From Phytoactinopolyspora mesophila (GTDB lineage Bacteria; Actinomycetota; Actinomycetes; Jiangellales; Jiangellaceae): DNA of 64,000 nt. The translations under genes were made by a program, and so were the position numbers. How positions within the stretch are numbered: the first letter of the stretch is position 1; every line of letters begins with the position of its first letter. Shown here piece by piece: positions 6,763-39,336 of this stretch. The notes under the pieces are model-generated. The model worked only from the letters and a program-made list of their open reading frames with translations. It was not told the DNA's origin and searched no databases. The stretch lies in the NCBI RefSeq assembly GCF_010122465.1, contig NZ_WLZY01000002.1:509076-573075 (forward strand). The letters are read 5' to 3'.

Positions 6763-8106
6763 ATGTTAACGTTAACAAGAGCTGGTCGGAGATTGGGGCT
6801 CAGTTCGGTCCTGATCCTCGGTCTGGCGTTCGCCACCGCGTGTGGTGGCGACGACGGCGGCAACCCCAGCGGCGATTCCGGCCAAGGCGGCGGTGAGGGC
6901 CAGGACATCGAGCTCGAGTTCTGGACGTTCGTCGACGCGCACACCGACTTCATGCAGGCCCGCGCGGACGAGTTCAACGCGCAGAACGACGAGTACAACA
7001 TCGTCCTGGACGCATCCGTAGCCGACTTCGAGGAGATGCACGACCGGCTCCTCGTCGCGATGCAGACCGGCGCCGGCGCGCCGGATATCGTCGACATCGA
7101 AATCCAGCGCTTCGCGACGTTCCTGCGCGGCGAGGTGCCACTACACCCGCTCACCGACATCGTCGACAACCACCGGGACCAGCTGGTGGAGGAGCGCACC
7201 GCGCCGTACCGGGCCGACGGCGTCGAGTACGGCATCGACTATCACCTCGGCACCTGGGTGATGTACTACAACAACGAGATCCTCGAGGAAGCCGGCGTCG
7301 ATGTCGACGACATCGTGAGCTGGGACGACTACATCGAGGCCGGTAAACAGGTGGTGGCGAACACCGACGCGTGGATGGCGCCGGTGGAGACGACGGACCG
7401 GTTCTCGGTGATCGGGCTGATGCTGCAGAACGGCGGCGGCACCTACGACGAGAACAACGAGCTGATTCTCGACAGCCAGGAGAACATCGACGCGTTGCAG
7501 CTGATCGCCGACATGGTCCATGAGCACGAGATCGCCACGGTGTCGGCCGGCGGTCAGGTTCATGACGAGGCCTTCTACCAGGCGATGAACGCCGGTGAGT
7601 ATGCCTCGGTGTGGATGCCACAATGGTTCGTCACCCGCTTCTGGGACTTCATGCCCGAAACCGAGGGGCACATCCTCATCCGCCCGCTTCCCGAGTTCGA
7701 GCCCGGCGGATTCATCAGCACCATGGGTGGCGGCACCGGTACGGCGATCACCAAGCAGATCGACGACGACAAGCTTGACGCGGCCAAGCAGTTCCTCGAG
7801 TTCGCCAAGCTCAGCTACGACGCGCAAGTAGCGCTATGGACGGAGCTCGGCTTCGACCCGTTCCGCAACGACGTCTACGAGGACGAGGCGCTGCTCGAGG
7901 CTGATCCGTGGTTCGGCGGCGAGCAAGTAATGACGAACCTGGAGGGCATGTTCGACCGGCTGGCTCCCGAATACACGGGACCGAGGTATCCGGAGGCGAT
8001 CCTGCAACTGCGCGACGTGGTCGCCTACGACGTCATCGAACAGGGTGCGGATCCGGGCGAAGCGCTCCGGAAGGCGGCAGAGGAAGTCCGCTCGATCGAC
8101 GACTAA
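6763..8106 (+). CDS. CUT1 ABC transporter sugar-binding lipoprotein
   Basis: A 447-residue extracellular solute-binding protein (SBP_bac_1 type). The N-terminal LGLSSVLILGLAFATAC is a lipoprotein signal with lipidated Cys near residue 28, followed by a Gly/Asp linker. The mature domain shows the usual features, with EFWTFVDAHTDFMQARADEF at its beginning and a conserved tryptophan-rich middle (SWDDYIEAGKQV). It is the first gene of a unit with two permeases and the GH51/GH43 enzymes, so an arabinose oligomer or other plant pentose is the likely ligand. A LacI-type palindrome overlaps the start codon. A structured element follows the stop. Confidence 0.92.
   Translation: MLTLTRAGRRLGLSSVLILGLAFATACGGDDGGNPSGDSGQGGGEGQDIELEFWTFVDAHTDFMQARADEFNAQNDEYNIVLDASVADFEEMHDRLLVAMQTGAGAPDIVDIEIQRFATFLRGEVPLHPLTDIVDNHRDQLVEERTAPYRADGVEYGIDYHLGTWVMYYNNEILEEAGVDVDDIVSWDDYIEAGKQVVANTDAWMAPVETTDRFSVIGLMLQNGGGTYDENNELILDSQENIDALQLIADMVHEHEIATVSAGGQVHDEAFYQAMNAGEYASVWMPQWFVTRFWDFMPETEGHILIRPLPEFEPGGFISTMGGGTGTAITKQIDDDKLDAAKQFLEFAKLSYDAQVALWTELGFDPFRNDVYEDEALLEADPWFGGEQVMTNLEGMFDRLAPEYTGPRYPEAILQLRDVVAYDVIEQGADPGEALRKAAEEVRSIDD
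6764..6777. promoter_or_regulatory. LacI-type operator across the start codon
   Basis: TGTTAACGTTAACA is a perfect 14-bp palindrome with the central CG step typical of LacI/GalR operators. It begins at the second base of the lipoprotein start codon, where a bound repressor would block transcription. No LacI gene is adjacent; the nearest in the window is the partial one at 63219. Confidence 0.65.
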
Positions 8107-8317
8107 GAGGTCGCGCGACCTCTAAGAGCCTGTTCAGGAACAGGCTCAATGGGGAGCCTGCAAGTGGATCTCTCCCGGCCCGCGGACTCGGTCGGAAGGT
8201 GTTCGCCATCGTCCATCTCTCGCCAGCTGATGGTCACGCTTGCCGGCTCCCTGGTCCGCCGGGTCGCCGCTCGTCATTTCCATCCACGTCATGGAGAGGT
8301 TCCACTTGCCGGCTCTC
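8107..8317 (+). ncRNA. candidate structured RNA element, copy 1 (after binding-protein gene)
   Basis: The 284-bp gap between the binding-protein and permease genes begins right after the stop with the perfect palindrome GAGGTCGCGCGACCTC (8107-8122), then a hairpin AGCCTGTTC/GAACAGGCT (8127-8146). A long stem follows, pairing 8151-8175 with 8293-8317: 24 pairs, including two G.U pairs, one mismatch and one bulge on each side of the register shift. The loop contains GGACTCGGTCGGA and TTCGCCATCG, which recur in the loop of the copy at 38296-38463. Both copies follow a sugar-binding-protein gene. It may stabilise the lipoprotein mRNA or limit read-through to the permeases; this function is inferred. 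Confidence 0.6.
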
Positions 8318-8390: not shown

Positions 8391-9323
8391 ATGGAAACCA
8401 GCACGCTGAGCCGGGAAGAGCGGCGCAGCCGCAGCCGCCCGAAACGGCCGTTCCTTCATCGTCCACCAGTGGTGGCCGCGATCTTCTTACTGCCGTTCCT
8501 GGTGCTCTTCGGGATCTTCCGGGTCTGGGCCGTCGGTTACGCCGTCGTGCTGAGTTTTCAGGACATCGAGGGGGTGGGGGTCAGTGATTGGACCGGCTTC
8601 GACAACTATCGCCGCCTGCTATCCGACAGCACGTTCTTCCTCGCGTTGCGCAATACCGCGCTGTACACGCTGGGGACGCTGCTGATTCTCATCCCGCTGC
8701 CGTTCGTGCTGGCCGCGGTGCTGCGCTCGAAACTCGTGGCCCGGCCGGTCATGTTCCGGTCGGTGTTCTTCCTGCCGGTGCTGACGTCGCTGGTGGTTGT
8801 CGGCGTCATCTTCTCGCTCCTGCTGACCACGCACGGGCTGCTGAACAGTTTCCTCGGCCTGTTCGGGCTTCCGCAGCAGGGCTGGCTGGAGACCCGGCAT
8901 CTGGCGATCCCGGCGATGATCATCATGGCCACCTGGCGATGGACCGGCATCAACATCATCTACTTCACCACCGGGTTGTCGAACATCCCGAACGAGCTCT
9001 ACGAGTCCGCCTCGGTCGACGGCGCCGGCGCGTTGCGCAAATTCTGGTATCTGTCGGTGCCGTTGTCGAAGCCGATCATCCTGTTTGTCACCATCTTGAC
9101 GATCTTCGGTGGTTTCCAGCTCTTCGTCGAGCCGTTGATCCTCTGGGGCACCGGCGGCGGTCCCGGGCAGGGCGGGCTGAGTGTGGTCATGCATCTCTAC
9201 CGGACCGCGTTCACGTCGTTCCAGCTCGGCTACGCCTCAGCCATTGGTGTCGTCCTGGCGTTGATGATCATTGTCCTGTCCCTCGTCGTACTGAAGCTCT
9301 TCGGCTTCTTCAAGAAGGACTGA
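8391..9323 (+). CDS. CUT1 ABC transporter permease (MalF-like)
   Basis: A 310-residue permease with six membrane segments and the EAA loop ESASVDGAGALRKFWYLSVP near residue 205, which docks onto a shared ATPase. The start ATG has GAGGTG upstream. It is followed 6 bp later by the second permease. Together with the lipoprotein it forms a CUT1 importer; no ATPase gene lies in the cluster, as is usual in actinobacteria where one MsiK-like ATPase serves many systems. Confidence 0.93.
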   Translation: METSTLSREERRSRSRPKRPFLHRPPVVAAIFLLPFLVLFGIFRVWAVGYAVVLSFQDIEGVGVSDWTGFDNYRRLLSDSTFFLALRNTALYTLGTLLILIPLPFVLAAVLRSKLVARPVMFRSVFFLPVLTSLVVVGVIFSLLLTTHGLLNSFLGLFGLPQQGWLETRHLAIPAMIIMATWRWTGINIIYFTTGLSNIPNELYESASVDGAGALRKFWYLSVPLSKPIILFVTILTIFGGFQLFVEPLILWGTGGGPGQGGLSVVMHLYRTAFTSFQLGYASAIGVVLALMIIVLSLVVLKLFGFFKKD

Positions 9324-34783: not shown

Positions 34784-35889
34784 CCCAGAGCGTCGACGTG
34801 TCGCAACGTCGGTCCACCCCCAAGAAGTGGAACCTGGGGCCGACCGAGCTGGTGTTCGTGGCGCTGTTCGCCATCGTGGCCGTCAGCGCGGTGCTGGTCG
34901 GTATGCGAGGCGCGAACCTGTTCAGCACCGGCAACCTCATCGACATGTTCACCCGGTCCAGCCTCTTGGGGTTCATCGCGATCGGCCAGACCTTCGCCAT
35001 TCTGTGCCGCTCGCTCGACCTTTCGGTCGGCTACGTGGTCGCCCTGACCAGCCTGATCGCGGCGACGACGATGGCCGGGCAGGCCGACCGCATCCTGTTC
35101 GGCGTGGCTGCTGTTCTGGTGGTTTCCGGATTGATCGGGCTGGCGAACGGCCTGATCATCACCGTACTCAAGGTGAACCCGTTCATCACCACCCTGGGCA
35201 TGGGGCTGATCATCAAGGGTTATCTCGACACTCAGTACCAAGGCCCGTCCGGCGACGTGCCCAGCGAGTTCCAGCAGTTCGGCTACACCCGCCTGGGCTT
35301 TCTGCCGCTGTCGACGGCGGTGATGCTCGTGATCGCCGTGGCGGGGATCATGTTCCTGCGCAAGAGTCGCACCGGCTACCACATGTTCGCCGTGGGCGGG
35401 AACGCCGAGGTCGCCCGGATGTCGGGCATCCGGACCGGACGGGTGATGATCACCGCTCACGTGTTGTGTTCGCTGTGCGCGGGGCTGGCCGGCTTGCTCA
35501 TCGCCGCTCGATTCGGAACCGGAAGCTCGCTGGTCTACAACAACCTCTACGAACTCGACTCCATCGCGGCCGTGGTGCTCGGCGGGACGCTCCTGCTCGG
35601 CGGGCGGGGCGGTATCGCGGGCACCATCGGCGGGGTGCTGATCCTGGCGGTCCTCGACACCGTCTTCAACATCTTGCAGGTGGATCCCTTCTTCAAGGAC
35701 GTCCTTCGTGGCGTGATCATCATCGCCGCGGTCGCCATCTACGCCCGCCGCCAGCTCGACCGCCAAGCCAGACGAGACCGGTTCAACGGCGGCGACGACG
35801 GCGGCGGAGCCGATCCACCGGAGCCGCCCACTCCAGTCCCTGCGGGATCAGGCGCGACGGAAACCGCGCAAGGGGGTGACACACGATGA
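34780..35889 (+). CDS. CUT2 sugar ABC transporter permease (RbsC type), first
   Basis: A 369-residue permease with about nine to ten membrane segments and family motifs FIAIGQTFAILCRSLDLSVG and FAVGGNAEVARMSGI. The C terminus carries a hydrophilic, Gly/Pro-rich tail. It overlaps the ATPase and the second permease by 4 bp each. Two different permease genes imply a heteromeric channel, as in several plant-sugar importers. Confidence 0.92.
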   Translation: MTQSVDVSQRRSTPKKWNLGPTELVFVALFAIVAVSAVLVGMRGANLFSTGNLIDMFTRSSLLGFIAIGQTFAILCRSLDLSVGYVVALTSLIAATTMAGQADRILFGVAAVLVVSGLIGLANGLIITVLKVNPFITTLGMGLIIKGYLDTQYQGPSGDVPSEFQQFGYTRLGFLPLSTAVMLVIAVAGIMFLRKSRTGYHMFAVGGNAEVARMSGIRTGRVMITAHVLCSLCAGLAGLLIAARFGTGSSLVYNNLYELDSIAAVVLGGTLLLGGRGGIAGTIGGVLILAVLDTVFNILQVDPFFKDVLRGVIIIAAVAIYARRQLDRQARRDRFNGGDDGGGADPPEPPTPVPAGSGATETAQGGDTR

Positions 35890-36977
35890 ACCCGAGCCTG
35901 ACCCAGCGTGGCAACCAGGTCACGGCGGCGACCGGCCGGCTGTTCGGCGGTGGCAGCGGGACGGTGTTCGCGCTGCTCCTGGTGATCTGCGTGGTCATCG
36001 CCTTCGTCAATGTGAGCTTCTTCGAGCCGCCGTCGCTGATGGCGTTCATCAAGACTGCCGCGCCCCTCGTGTTGCTGGCGATCGGCCAGTATTTCGTCAT
36101 CGTCTCCGGTGAGCTCGACCTTTCGGTTGGTTCGCTGGTGGGCGCCCAGGTGGTCATCGCGGCGCGGCTCATCGACGGGGAGGAAGGCCGGACCATCCCG
36201 GTCCTGCTCCTGATGCTGGCCTTCGGCGTGCTCGTGGGTCTGGTTAATGGCCTGATCACCACCGTGCTGAAGGTGCAGTCGCTGATCACGACGCTCGGGA
36301 TGATGCTGGTGCTGTTCGGGGCGGTCCGGCTCTGGACCGGCGGCGCACCGACCGGTGCGTTGTCCGAGGCGTTCCGGCAGCCGGGCAGGGGCGGACTCGA
36401 CATGCCGGTGGTGCGCCAGCTGCCGTGGGCGCTGGTCATCCTCGTCGTGTTCGTCGTCGCCGCGATCGTGCTGATGCGCAGCTCCTACGGCAAGGTGCTG
36501 GTCGCCACCGGGGACAACGAGCGCTCGGCAGCCTTCTCCGGTGCCCGGGTATGGAAGGTCCGTACCGCTGCCTTCGTGCTGTCCAGCGTCATGGCGACCT
36601 TCGCGGCGGTCCTCATCGGCGGCTTCGCCGGTGTGACTGCACAGGTCGGCCAGGGGCTCGAGTTCTCGGCGATCACCGCGGTGGTCCTGGGCGGGGTGGT
36701 GCTCGGCGGCGGCCGCGGCACCGTCATCGGCGCGATGGGCGGGGCACTGACGCTGCAGGCGTTGTTCACCCTGTTCAACCAGCTGGCCCTGCCGTCCACC
36801 ATCCGACCGGCCGCTCAAGGCGTGATCATCATCGCCGCGGTCGCCTACGCCGCACGGGAGCGGTCTCGCCCCGTCGCGCCTTCCGAACCACTCCATTCTC
36901 CCGAACCGGATCCCCCCGAGCCGGATTTCCCTGAACCAGCCCATTCCCGAGATGGCGAGAGTCGTTCCACAACCTAG
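35886..36977 (+). CDS. CUT2 sugar ABC transporter permease (RbsC type), second
   Basis: A 363-residue permease with motifs LLAIGQYFVIVSGELDLSVG and VATGDNERSAAFSGARV, comparable to the first permease. Its C-terminal tail is an unusual Pro/Glu/His-rich stretch (SEPLHSPEPDPPEPDFPEP) of unknown role. It begins with a 4-bp overlap on the first permease and ends 13 bp before the binding-protein gene. Confidence 0.92.
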   Translation: MNPSLTQRGNQVTAATGRLFGGGSGTVFALLLVICVVIAFVNVSFFEPPSLMAFIKTAAPLVLLAIGQYFVIVSGELDLSVGSLVGAQVVIAARLIDGEEGRTIPVLLLMLAFGVLVGLVNGLITTVLKVQSLITTLGMMLVLFGAVRLWTGGAPTGALSEAFRQPGRGGLDMPVVRQLPWALVILVVFVVAAIVLMRSSYGKVLVATGDNERSAAFSGARVWKVRTAAFVLSSVMATFAAVLIGGFAGVTAQVGQGLEFSAITAVVLGGVVLGGGRGTVIGAMGGALTLQALFTLFNQLALPSTIRPAAQGVIIIAAVAYAARERSRPVAPSEPLHSPEPDPPEPDFPEPAHSRDGESRSTT

Positions 36978-36990
36978 AGGGAGGCACCAA

Positions 36991-38274
36991 ATGCGCAAGT
37001 CCCGCATTTTCCTAGCCAGCGCTGCCGCGGTAGCCCTGGCATTGTCAGCCTGTACCACGGATGATCCGGACGACGCGGCCGATCCGATCGACGACGTCGC
37101 TGTTGAAGCCGACGCCGATGCCGACGACGATGAGCCCGACGACGGTGACGATGACGACGCCAGTGACGATGACGCCAGCGACGACGATGAGCGTGCGGAC
37201 GACGACTGGTTCGTTCGGGCCGATTACGAGCGGCAGCTCGCTCAGCGTGACATCGAGCCGGAAGGTCCGGCAGATCAGCCGTGGCTGCAGGCGATCGACC
37301 CGGATTGGACCGACACGTCGGAGTATGCGAACGGCGGCGATAACACGCTGTGCTTCTCCAATGCCTCGGTGAGCAACCCGTGGCGGGTGACGGGCTGGAT
37401 CACGATGCAGCAGCAGGTCGAGGTCTACCAGGACAGCGGCGACATCGGCGAGTTCCGCGTCTCCGACGCTGCGGACGATGACAACCAGCAGATCTCGGAC
37501 ATCCAGACGTTCATCGACGCTGGTGACTGCGATGCGCTGATCGTCTCGCCGTCGACCACGGCCACCCTGACGCCGGCGGTTCAGGCGGCCTGCGACAGCG
37601 ACGTCCCGGTGATCGTCTTCGACCGTGGTGTCAACACCGACTGCATGGTGACCTTCATCCACCCGATCGGCGGCTACGCCTACGGTGCCGACGCCGCGGA
37701 GTTCCTGGTCGACAGCCTGGAGCCGGGCTCGACGGTGCTGGCGCTGCGCATCCTCGCTGGCGTGGACGTGCTGGAGCACCGCTGGGCGGCCGCTCAGGAG
37801 ATCTTCGGCGCCAGTGAACTGGACGTGCTGGGATACGAGTTCACCGGTGGTGACGGCGCGCAGATCAAGGACACTGTGACGCAGTACCTGCAGCGGGGCG
37901 ACGTGGACGGCATCTGGATGGACGCCGGTGACGGCGCGGTGGCCGCCATCGAGGCGTTCGAGGACACCGGGAACGACTACCCGGTGATCGCGGGCGAGGA
38001 CGAACTGAGCTTCATGCGTAAGTGGCAGGAGACCGGGCTGACCGGGATCGCGCCGGTGTACTCGAACTTCCAGTGGCGTACGCCGATCGAGGCGGCCGTC
38101 ATGATCTGGAACGGCGAGGAGGTGCCCAGCGAGTGGGTGCTTCCGCAGGAGCCGATCACCGAGGCCGACCGCGACGAGTTCCTCGACCGCAACGCCGAGA
38201 TGCCGAGCCTGCACTACGCCAAGTTCGGTGGCGAGGACCTGCCTGGCTTCCCGGACGTGTGGCAGGACCGCTAG
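36991..38274 (+). CDS. CUT2 sugar-binding lipoprotein
   Basis: A 427-residue binding protein (Peripla_BP_4 group). The lipobox is LALSAC near residue 19. An Asp-rich linker (about residues 30-75) with the repeat DDDASDDDASDDDE separates the lipid anchor from the binding domain. The domain shows DNQQISDIQTFIDAGDCDAL and VPVIVFDRGVNTDC, as in ribose/xylose-type receptors. AGAGGGAGG precedes the ATG at 36991; the upstream frame overlaps the permease end. A structured element follows the stop. Confidence 0.92.
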   Translation: MRKSRIFLASAAAVALALSACTTDDPDDAADPIDDVAVEADADADDDEPDDGDDDDASDDDASDDDERADDDWFVRADYERQLAQRDIEPEGPADQPWLQAIDPDWTDTSEYANGGDNTLCFSNASVSNPWRVTGWITMQQQVEVYQDSGDIGEFRVSDAADDDNQQISDIQTFIDAGDCDALIVSPSTTATLTPAVQAACDSDVPVIVFDRGVNTDCMVTFIHPIGGYAYGADAAEFLVDSLEPGSTVLALRILAGVDVLEHRWAAAQEIFGASELDVLGYEFTGGDGAQIKDTVTQYLQRGDVDGIWMDAGDGAVAAIEAFEDTGNDYPVIAGEDELSFMRKWQETGLTGIAPVYSNFQWRTPIEAAVMIWNGEEVPSEWVLPQEPITEADRDEFLDRNAEMPSLHYAKFGGEDLPGFPDVWQDR

Positions 38275-38295: not shown

Positions 38296-38463
38296 GAGAG
38301 GTCGCGCGCCGTGTGAGTGGCCCCGGCAAGCGGGGTCTCTCCCCGCCCAGCAGACTCGGTCGGAGAGAGGCTTCGCCATCGACCTTCCTCGCTGATGCCC
38401 GCCACACCATGGAGAGACTCCGTTTGCCGGGGCCTCCAAGACCAAGAAATCGCGTGACCTCTC
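38296..38463 (+). ncRNA. candidate structured RNA element, copy 2 (after binding-protein gene)
   Basis: Outer stem 38296-38308 with 38451-38463 (13 pairs, one G.U) and inner stem 38319-38342 with 38411-38434 (24 pairs, two G.U). All three wobble pairs have G on the left and T on the right, so they pair only in the transcript of the + strand, the direction of the operon. The 68-nt loop carries AGACTCGGTCGGA and CTTCGCCATCGACC, shared with the copy at 8107-8317. It separates the binding-protein gene from the epimerase gene. Confidence 0.68.
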
Positions 38464-38481: not shown

Positions 38482-39336
38482 GTGACCAGGAAGCTTGGTG
38501 TCAATACATGGGTGTGGACATCGCCGCTCACCGATCAGGGGCTGGCCGAGCTGGCCCCCCGGATCGCCGGGTGGGGGTTCGACGTCATCGAGTTGCCGGT
38601 GGAGAACCCCGGCGACTGGGACCCGCAGCGCGCCACCAAGCTCCTGGACGCGCTGGGCTTGTCCGCCAGCGTCGTCCTGGTGATGGGAGAGGGCCGCGAG
38701 CTGGTGGCGACCGACCGGGGAACGGTCGCCGCCACTCGCGACTACCTTCGACACGTCGTTGACGTCGCTGCCGTGGTCGGATCACCGGTGATCGCCGGCC
38801 CGGCGTATGCCTCGGTGGGCCGGACCTGGCGAATGGACGCTGCCGAGCGCCGCGACCGTTACGCGGAGCTCCGTGACGGCCTGGCGCCGGTGGTCGAGCA
38901 TGCCATGGCGGCGGATGTGAGCGTTGCCATCGAACCCCTCAACCGGTATGAGACCAGTCTGATCAACACGGTGGAGCAGGCACTCGAAGCGATCGAGGGC
39001 CTACCGCCAGCCGGATGTGGACTGGCGCTCGACGTTTACCACATGAACATCGAAGAACGTGATGTTCCGGCCGCGATCCGGCGCGCGTCCGGTCGAATCG
39101 CCCACGTACAGGTGTGCGCCAACGACCGGGGAGCGCCTGGGGCGGATCATCTGGACTGGCCGGGCATCGTGGCCGCGATCGACGCCGCGGAGTACAAGGG
39201 GCCGTTGGTCATCGAGTCGTTCACCGCGGAGAACGAGACCATCGCGACCGCGGCGTCGATCTGGCGGCCCCTGGCCTCGAGCCAGGATGCGATCGCTACC
39301 GAAGGCGTGGCTTTTCTGAAGGGAGTGGTGCGCTAG
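38482..39336 (+). CDS. TIM-barrel sugar epimerase/isomerase (D-tagatose/psicose 3-epimerase group)
   Basis: A 284-residue member of the AP-endonuclease-2-like sugar isomerase family. Probable metal ligands are Glu in VAIEPLNRYETSLINT, Asp in GLALDVYHMNIEE, His in GADHLDW and Glu in GPLVIESF, the pattern of ketose 3-epimerases. The start is GTG with AAAGGAC upstream. It lies after the transporter genes and the structured element. Beside a Gfo/Idh/MocA enzyme and ThuA, such proteins often act on keto-sugars; the exact reaction is inferred. Confidence 0.87.
   Translation: MTRKLGVNTWVWTSPLTDQGLAELAPRIAGWGFDVIELPVENPGDWDPQRATKLLDALGLSASVVLVMGEGRELVATDRGTVAATRDYLRHVVDVAAVVGSPVIAGPAYASVGRTWRMDAAERRDRYAELRDGLAPVVEHAMAADVSVAIEPLNRYETSLINTVEQALEAIEGLPPAGCGLALDVYHMNIEERDVPAAIRRASGRIAHVQVCANDRGAPGADHLDWPGIVAAIDAAEYKGPLVIESFTAENETIATAASIWRPLASSQDAIATEGVAFLKGVVR

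Follow-up and report, generated by a model that had tools for sequence, protein, structure and literature searches.

The two long hairpins that follow sugar-binding-protein genes in the DNA analysed here (the window, a stretch of 64,000 nucleotides from Phytoactinopolyspora mesophila) are, with fair confidence, two copies of one dispersed, mobile palindromic repeat of the kind represented by Rickettsia palindromic elements (RPE), REP sequences and MITEs, in which template switching has probably re-copied one arm from the other, with a possible role as a hairpin at the 3' end of mRNAs. Throughout Jiangellaceae the family supplies new 3' hairpins and new protein insertions.

The two copies in the window

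Family membership was scored with two covariance models: R1, built from alignment A1 (37 of 43 extracted copies), and R2, built from alignment A2 (44 of 114 copies, shorter-loop sub-types included). The copies in both alignments were picked for clean stems, and the high percentages of paired cells in them reflect that selection. The features of the window are as follows.

6763-8106, + strand: binding-protein gene 5' of copy 1, SBP_bac_1, CUT1-type (Pfam PF01547, E 6.9e-28)
8107-8122, + strand: short perfect palindrome directly 3' of the stop codon of that gene, separate from the element
8154-8315, + strand: copy 1, a diverged long-loop element (R1 41.8 bits, E 1.7e-6, match 8155-8314)
8154-8175 and 8293-8315, + strand: arms of copy 1, from the fold
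8391-9323, + strand: permease gene 3' of copy 1, BPD_transp_1 (Pfam PF00528, E 5.5e-12)
36952-38274, + strand: binding-protein gene 5' of copy 2, Peripla_BP_4, CUT2-type (Pfam PF13407, E 1.6e-26)
38296-38308, + strand: 5' arm of the outer stem of copy 2, from the fold; the family has no counterpart
38319-38434, + strand: copy 2, a complete element of the 68-nt-loop sub-type (R1 130.2 bits, E 1.7e-24, match 38321-38432)
38319-38342 and 38411-38434, + strand: arms of copy 2, enclosing the loop at 38343-38410, from the pair listing of the fold
38451-38463, + strand: 3' arm of the outer stem of copy 2, from the fold
38482-39336, + strand: xylose-isomerase-like TIM-barrel gene 3' of copy 2 (Pfam PF01261, E 1.2e-34)

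The original prediction, made from the letters of the window, was of a structured RNA with a 24-pair inner and a 13-pair outer stem in copy 2, a matching stem in copy 1 and two loop blocks common to both. The stems of copy 2 were borne out (22 Watson-Crick and two G.U pairs in the inner one; one G.U among the 13 of the outer one), and none of 200 dinucleotide shuffles matched the fold energy of this copy (z -4.75). Copy 1 also folds (z -4.99 against shuffles), but its stem aligns to the model with mismatches and a gap, and it is a weak member of the family; long-loop relatives of it lie elsewhere in the same genome (C6:347081, C4:321788 and C7:285193). The minus and plus strands of copy 2 are equally stable (-92.8 and -92.3 kcal/mol), and the plus strand of copy 1 is more stable than its minus strand (-106.4 vs -98.1 kcal/mol). 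Both loop blocks are exact in the two copies; GACTCGGTCGGA has no other site in the window and TTCGCCATCG occurs a third time at 34867. The neighbours, too, were as described, with the SBP_bac_1 gene followed by two permease genes at copy 1 and the Peripla_BP_4 gene followed by the xylose-isomerase-like gene at copy 2. The statement that no named motif carries these blocks agrees with the Rfam 15 search, in which no family reached its gathering score within the window; a tRNA scan of the window found none.

Other small palindromes lie close to copy 1. The palindrome at 8107-8122 is similar to one half of copy 2's outer stem; it was considered as a repeat and rejected, since an exact match was present at one of 337 loci, its own. 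A perfect palindrome at 8126-8148, GAGCCTGTTCAGGAACAGGCTC, adjoins copy 1, and CAGGAACAGGCTC is also found directly behind a broken element at C8:275673 (locus L115); this palindrome is perhaps another small repeat.

Size, architecture and host range of the family

The element had been thought to be present twice; R1 has at least 76 matches in this genome. A blastn search of the genome with copy 2 returned 63 pieces at E <= 10, of which 46 reached E <= 1e-14, spread over many contigs and both strands, with some in tandem. Since R2 adds nine places without an R1 match, the genome holds about 80 copies or more, of uneven strength. Across five genomes of the genus the R1 matches number at least 76, 3, 18, 17 and 1, and all such copy numbers are lower bounds, given that the best 150 candidates per genome were scored (the best 40 in BLAST searches and the best 27 in the class-wide survey). 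From the total of 115 R1 matches one opposite-strand duplicate was excluded; the remaining 114 were used, and placement, orientation and wobble pairs were analysed in the 104 copies in which 17 or more of the 22 stem positions are paired. The ten rows dropped at that step include copy 1 of the window, for which the stem register was missed.

The common core lies between the arms and reads, from arm to arm, YCGCCC(A)GC.G ... CGATGCCC...CCMTGG. It contains a short inner helix, in the middle of which one pair covaries (GC in 36 and AU in eight copies of A2). Loops measure 41-125 nt, the stem has a median of 26 bp, and the whole unit comes to about 85-170 nt. Tandem arrays of two or three elements occur in this genome at C3:141102-141404, C1:1125794-1126030, C1:1143525-1143750 and C1:953818-954050.

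Matches to R2 were found in 16 of 22 Jiangellaceae genomes, representing three of the six genera; G010, G014, G020 and G021 are among the genomes that gave none. In the class-wide survey eight of 148 genomes had matches and all eight were Jiangellaceae, and none of the 137 genomes sampled from the rest of the class matched (under stricter filters and from the best 27 candidates of each), a figure that takes all family members to be among the genomes listed by name or kinship, 120 others being unlisted. A strict pattern of the loop was found, among named genomes, in six Jiangella species, Haloactinopolyspora alba, Phytoactinopolyspora halotolerans and P. limicola only (32 stretches). Phylum-wide the same pattern hit one of 296 genomes, its own, a negative that says little alone because the pattern is narrow; it was absent from the viral contigs, and the plasmid collection yielded a single piece of 33 nt at E 0.5. 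Judged by these searches the repeat appears confined to Jiangellaceae as far as searched, and no description of it was found in the open-licence papers searched.

Covariation of the stem and its origin

Compensatory change is regarded as the strongest evidence of a functional RNA. The original prediction had proposed that homologues be examined for it, and such changes are abundant in both alignments. In A1, double-sided changes occur at 20 of the 22 outer-stem pairs, the whole structure has 203 double-changed cells vs 51.6 in shuffles, and the covariation score is 0.570, falling to at most 0.136 when the structure is slid. In A2, the corresponding figures are 21 of 22 pairs, 377 cells vs 94.6, and 0.913 against at most 0.218. 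Two coarser measures of A2 lie little above the shuffles because of saturation, namely the number of pairs with a double change (23 vs 20.0, equalled in four of 500 shuffles) and that of further pair types (67 vs 63.6, equalled in 75 of 500). Comparison of 35 clean copies belonging to the amplified sub-type puts the identity of the 5' arm between copies at 59% for its outer third, 63% for the middle part and 91% for the six inner positions, and that of the two loop ends at 80% and 91%. The arms are private to each copy in sequence, yet kept paired.

Selection on the RNA of the plus strand had been argued from wobble pairs, all clear cases in the two window copies being G.U in that strand and A.C in the other. 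The 24-pair stem of copy 2 does have two G.U and no A.C; the argument fails family-wide. The 104 copies have 2049 internal stem positions with Watson-Crick neighbours on both sides, of which 1929 are Watson-Crick, 25 G.U, 35 A.C and 60 other, and the difference between G.U and A.C is not significant (p = 0.25); in this genome alone the counts are 13 G.U and 26 A.C (p 0.053). A count with stems extended through terminal G.U pairs points in the opposite direction (93 G.U vs 50 A.C) and was set aside, since such extension favours G.U by construction.

The kinds of substitution also bear on the origin of the pairing. Compensated double changes comprise 71 transitions and 66 transversions (67 and 46 for loop substitutions in the same comparisons), so that half of the compensated changes are transversion exchanges, for which there is no route via G.U. 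At a site common to two relatives (G002 and G003), adjacent pairs have switched jointly, GA to CC on one arm and TC to GG on the other, and one uncompensated change adjoins this joint change. Adjacent stem changes cluster as a trend (38 observed vs 30.3 expected, p 0.06), and 66 of 203 stem differences between nearest neighbours are one-sided or unpaired. Template switching is described as able to repair stems and to create multibase compensatory mutations (PMC8794818), and also as homogenising arms and inverting spacers, in coding genes included (PMC8604942). It is a mechanism that we infer, the clustering of adjacent changes being a trend; the compensatory changes are there, but template switching leaves an identical signature.

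Filled and empty sites

Orthologous sites were surveyed in six relatives for 24 of 31 eligible sites, 22 of which gave relatives; 70 loci were read, about half of the matches listed, and some of them are probably paralogues (response regulators). An R2 element was present at four of the 70 (L269, L293, L266 and L262). Copy 2 is absent from the orthologous gene end in all five relatives read: in G002 and G003 the binding-protein gene abuts the next gene almost directly, the two genes are a few dozen bases apart in G004 and G006, and a different hairpin is found in G005. Copy 2 is therefore not a conserved attenuator of that operon.

An empty site was also seen within a gene. The MTHFR-like gene at C1:940545-941609 of this genome has 57 additional in-frame residues that correspond to one partial and one complete element, and its orthologues in G001, G002, G003, G004 and G021 read straight through the site, in a comparison that leaves aside G005 and G006, which also matched. 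The partial copy beside the complete one indicates that partial tandem duplication follows insertion. This clean empty site, together with the absence of copy 2 in relatives, argues that copies insert; some sites are common to several species, so not every copy is recent. No target duplication was seen at the single clean comparison of a filled and an empty site (MTHFR-like, where the filled site bears the partial tandem copy), and neither a transposase nor the element boundary was found.

A different proposal is that the loop alone is mobile and inserts itself into the loops of pre-existing gene-end hairpins, so that each site would have its own stem. Stem sequence does vary by site, and other strong hairpins do stand at some orthologous gene ends, as this proposal would have it; there was, though, no long pre-insertion hairpin at the MTHFR-like site or at the copy-2 site of G002, G003 and G004, and the arms of a sub-type share ancestry, with the six innermost positions 91% identical. 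As a main model it was rejected on the strength of the hairpin-free empty sites and the related inner arms, and it is given very little credence here. The other hairpins deserve mention in their own right. At L257, L270 and L271 (G004) and L248 (G005), orthologues of element-bearing gene ends, a strong hairpin of another type lies directly past the stop codon, with TGATCAT/ATGATCA-like ends and, for example, a stem of 22-46 bp; this type may be a second Jiangellaceae repeat family.

Placement and orientation

Genes were called with a codon-usage script trained on 30 open reading frames of the window, and not taken from annotation. With respect to these calls, 80 of the 104 copies lie 3' of a co-directional gene, at a median of 17.5 nt past its stop codon. 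Gaps between co-directional genes hold 36 sense and 13 antisense copies (p = 0.0014) and those between convergent genes 44, of which 36 are nearer to the gene on their 5' side; two copies are in divergent gaps and nine inside open reading frames (six antisense, three sense). As a reference, 40 stretches of this genome contain 64 co-directional, 32 convergent and 30 divergent gaps of 100 nt or more, with the element gaps included. The sense and 3' bias is real, and purifying selection, a preference of insertion or a role of the 3' RNA could each yield it. The excess of sense over antisense copies in co-directional gaps (36 vs 13) favours a role at the level of the transcript. The stop codons that precede the 80 sense copies are TGA in 47, TAG in 30 and TAA in three cases, and TAG looks frequent for a genome of high GC content.

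The bias just described would also fit repeats that form a class of structured 3'-UTR RNA or terminator, kept in place by a function at the end of the message and covarying through selection for RNA pairing, as in actinobacterial terminator-like repeats. The proximity to the stop codon, the excess of sense copies, the convergent copies that lie nearer to their 5' gene and the replacement of the element by other strong hairpins at some orthologous gene ends all suit such a class. Against it, the stem is not followed by the run of T that is the hallmark of intrinsic terminators (T accounts for 13-29% at each of 20 positions), G.U pairs are no commoner than A.C, intragenic copies are in frame in both orientations, and the element stands at only four of the 70 orthologous gene ends read. 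On balance this account of the family is unlikely, though it has some weight.

Far less probable is an operon-specific riboswitch or attenuator controlling how much binding protein is made relative to transporter. It would explain why each window copy separates a binding-protein gene from the gene that follows it in the operon, the placement from which the original prediction drew a tie to sugar-binding-protein genes. That tie did not survive the wider sample: the genes upstream of the family are functionally mixed, and the Pfam hits of 54 upstream genes from this genome, together with the binding protein of copy 1, cover 85 families, only six of which have more than one member. The association with sugar transport thus looks like chance, as far as domain content can tell. 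With upstream genes of mixed function, a copy-2 site that is empty in five relatives and 44 of the 104 copies between convergent genes, an operon RNA is contradicted as the function of the family; a local effect on the two operons is possible.

Copies inside genes and inverted loops

In-frame copies were found in genes of seven kinds. When seven element-bearing proteins were scanned, the element lay between domain matches in five (an oxidoreductase with a BFD domain, a CobB-like amidotransferase, a copper amine oxidase, an FHA-FtsK protein and a double ABC ATPase) and within a domain in two (the MTHFR-like protein and an ADP-ribosylglycohydrolase, the gene of which bears the element in two species). 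The in-frame translations of the element vary with its orientation and with the copy.

In a hydantoinase A/B fusion gene the same linker carries an element in five of eight species (loci L307-L314), sense in G001 and G003 and antisense in G004, G005 and G006; in G000 (this genome), G002 and G021 the linker is empty and unrelated in sequence. This linker is a hot spot for elements of either orientation. At the gene end at C1:640570, similarly, the copy is sense in this genome and antisense in G005. These differences in orientation are compatible with inversion in place as well as with more than one insertion at a tolerant site.

Two kinds of observation had been named in advance as telling against a selected RNA, a lack of homologues with compensatory changes, or homologues outside transcribed regions and in both orientations. 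The homologues with compensatory changes exist, but the second kind of observation was made as well, in the form of 13 of 104 copies antisense in co-directional gaps, nine of 104 intragenic in either orientation and a loop inverted at two common sites.

A proposed mechanism

To return to the mobile palindromic repeat, the unit would spread as a small non-autonomous mobile element with its arms travelling along, and the conserved loop and inner arm would be the recognition target of a putative mobiliser. Complementarity of the arms would be kept mainly by re-copying one from the other through template switching, and not by wobble-mediated selection on RNA. Most surviving insertions would lie 3' of stop codons as the places of least harm, and the transcribed 3' hairpins would then probably act as structures at the end of the message, whether in protection from exonucleases, as a processing site or as a partial terminator. 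If so, copies 1 and 2 may alter the expression of the genes behind the two binding-protein genes. REPs are described as able to block exonucleases (PMC12306157), and by analogy with them the long RNA stem at copies 1 and 2 may shield or end the upstream message.

A stronger form of this mechanism, which we hold tentatively and at somewhat less than even chances, is that of a new mobile palindrome defined by its loop, the arms of which copy each other at replication, so that insertions drift to private hairpins; the loop can flip in place, coding sequences can be entered in frame either way, and covariation would be a by-product of DNA copying. Overwhelming covariation is here combined with in-frame, antisense and loop-inverted copies, with no excess of G.U and with transversions in half of the compensated changes, which makes the family a natural system for separating RNA selection from the copying of DNA arms. 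Should the covariation indeed be a by-product of DNA copying, the family would offer a natural test of covariation as proof of RNA function.

Comparison with known systems

RPE are described as dispersed palindromes found between genes and in frame within unrelated genes (PMC10969869). The present family consists of dispersed palindromes of similar size that are also in frame within genes, a likeness by description and placement. It differs in belonging to another lineage, in conserving the loop and inner arm while leaving the outer arm free, and in entering genes both ways, with no single conserved peptide read through the element.

REP and BIME sequences are palindromes of many copies, described as mostly extragenic and near gene ends (PMC3733652, PMC12306157), and the family is likewise made of many palindromes near gene ends. 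REPs are, on the other hand, 20-40 bp long, bear the tag GTAG and are associated with RAYTs (PMC3733652), whereas the unit of the family measures about 85-170 nt. A RAYT was considered as the mobiliser and rejected, because the domain (Y1_Tnp, PF01797) is missing from all five genus genomes in a search that was positive in five of 14 controls.

MITEs such as ERIC, Correia and QMITE are described as small non-autonomous elements with inverted repeats, often intergenic or 3' of open reading frames and able to affect mRNA (PMC10969869). In the family it is the outer ends that vary most (59% identity) and the loop that is conserved, which is the reverse of a MITE. The termini of MITEs are conserved transposase sites, and conserved terminal inverted repeats were not seen in the 35 copies compared (59% outer vs 91% over the inner six). 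A repeated class of hairpins, the Tuberculosis Rho-independent terminators (TRIT), also stands at the gene ends of an actinobacterium. According to PMC3526491 a model of TRIT was proposed in the RNIE paper. By description the family is alike in forming repeated gene-end hairpins in an actinobacterium. Set beside these systems, it is best classed as a new family of mobile palindromes, a variant in having private, self-matching arms.
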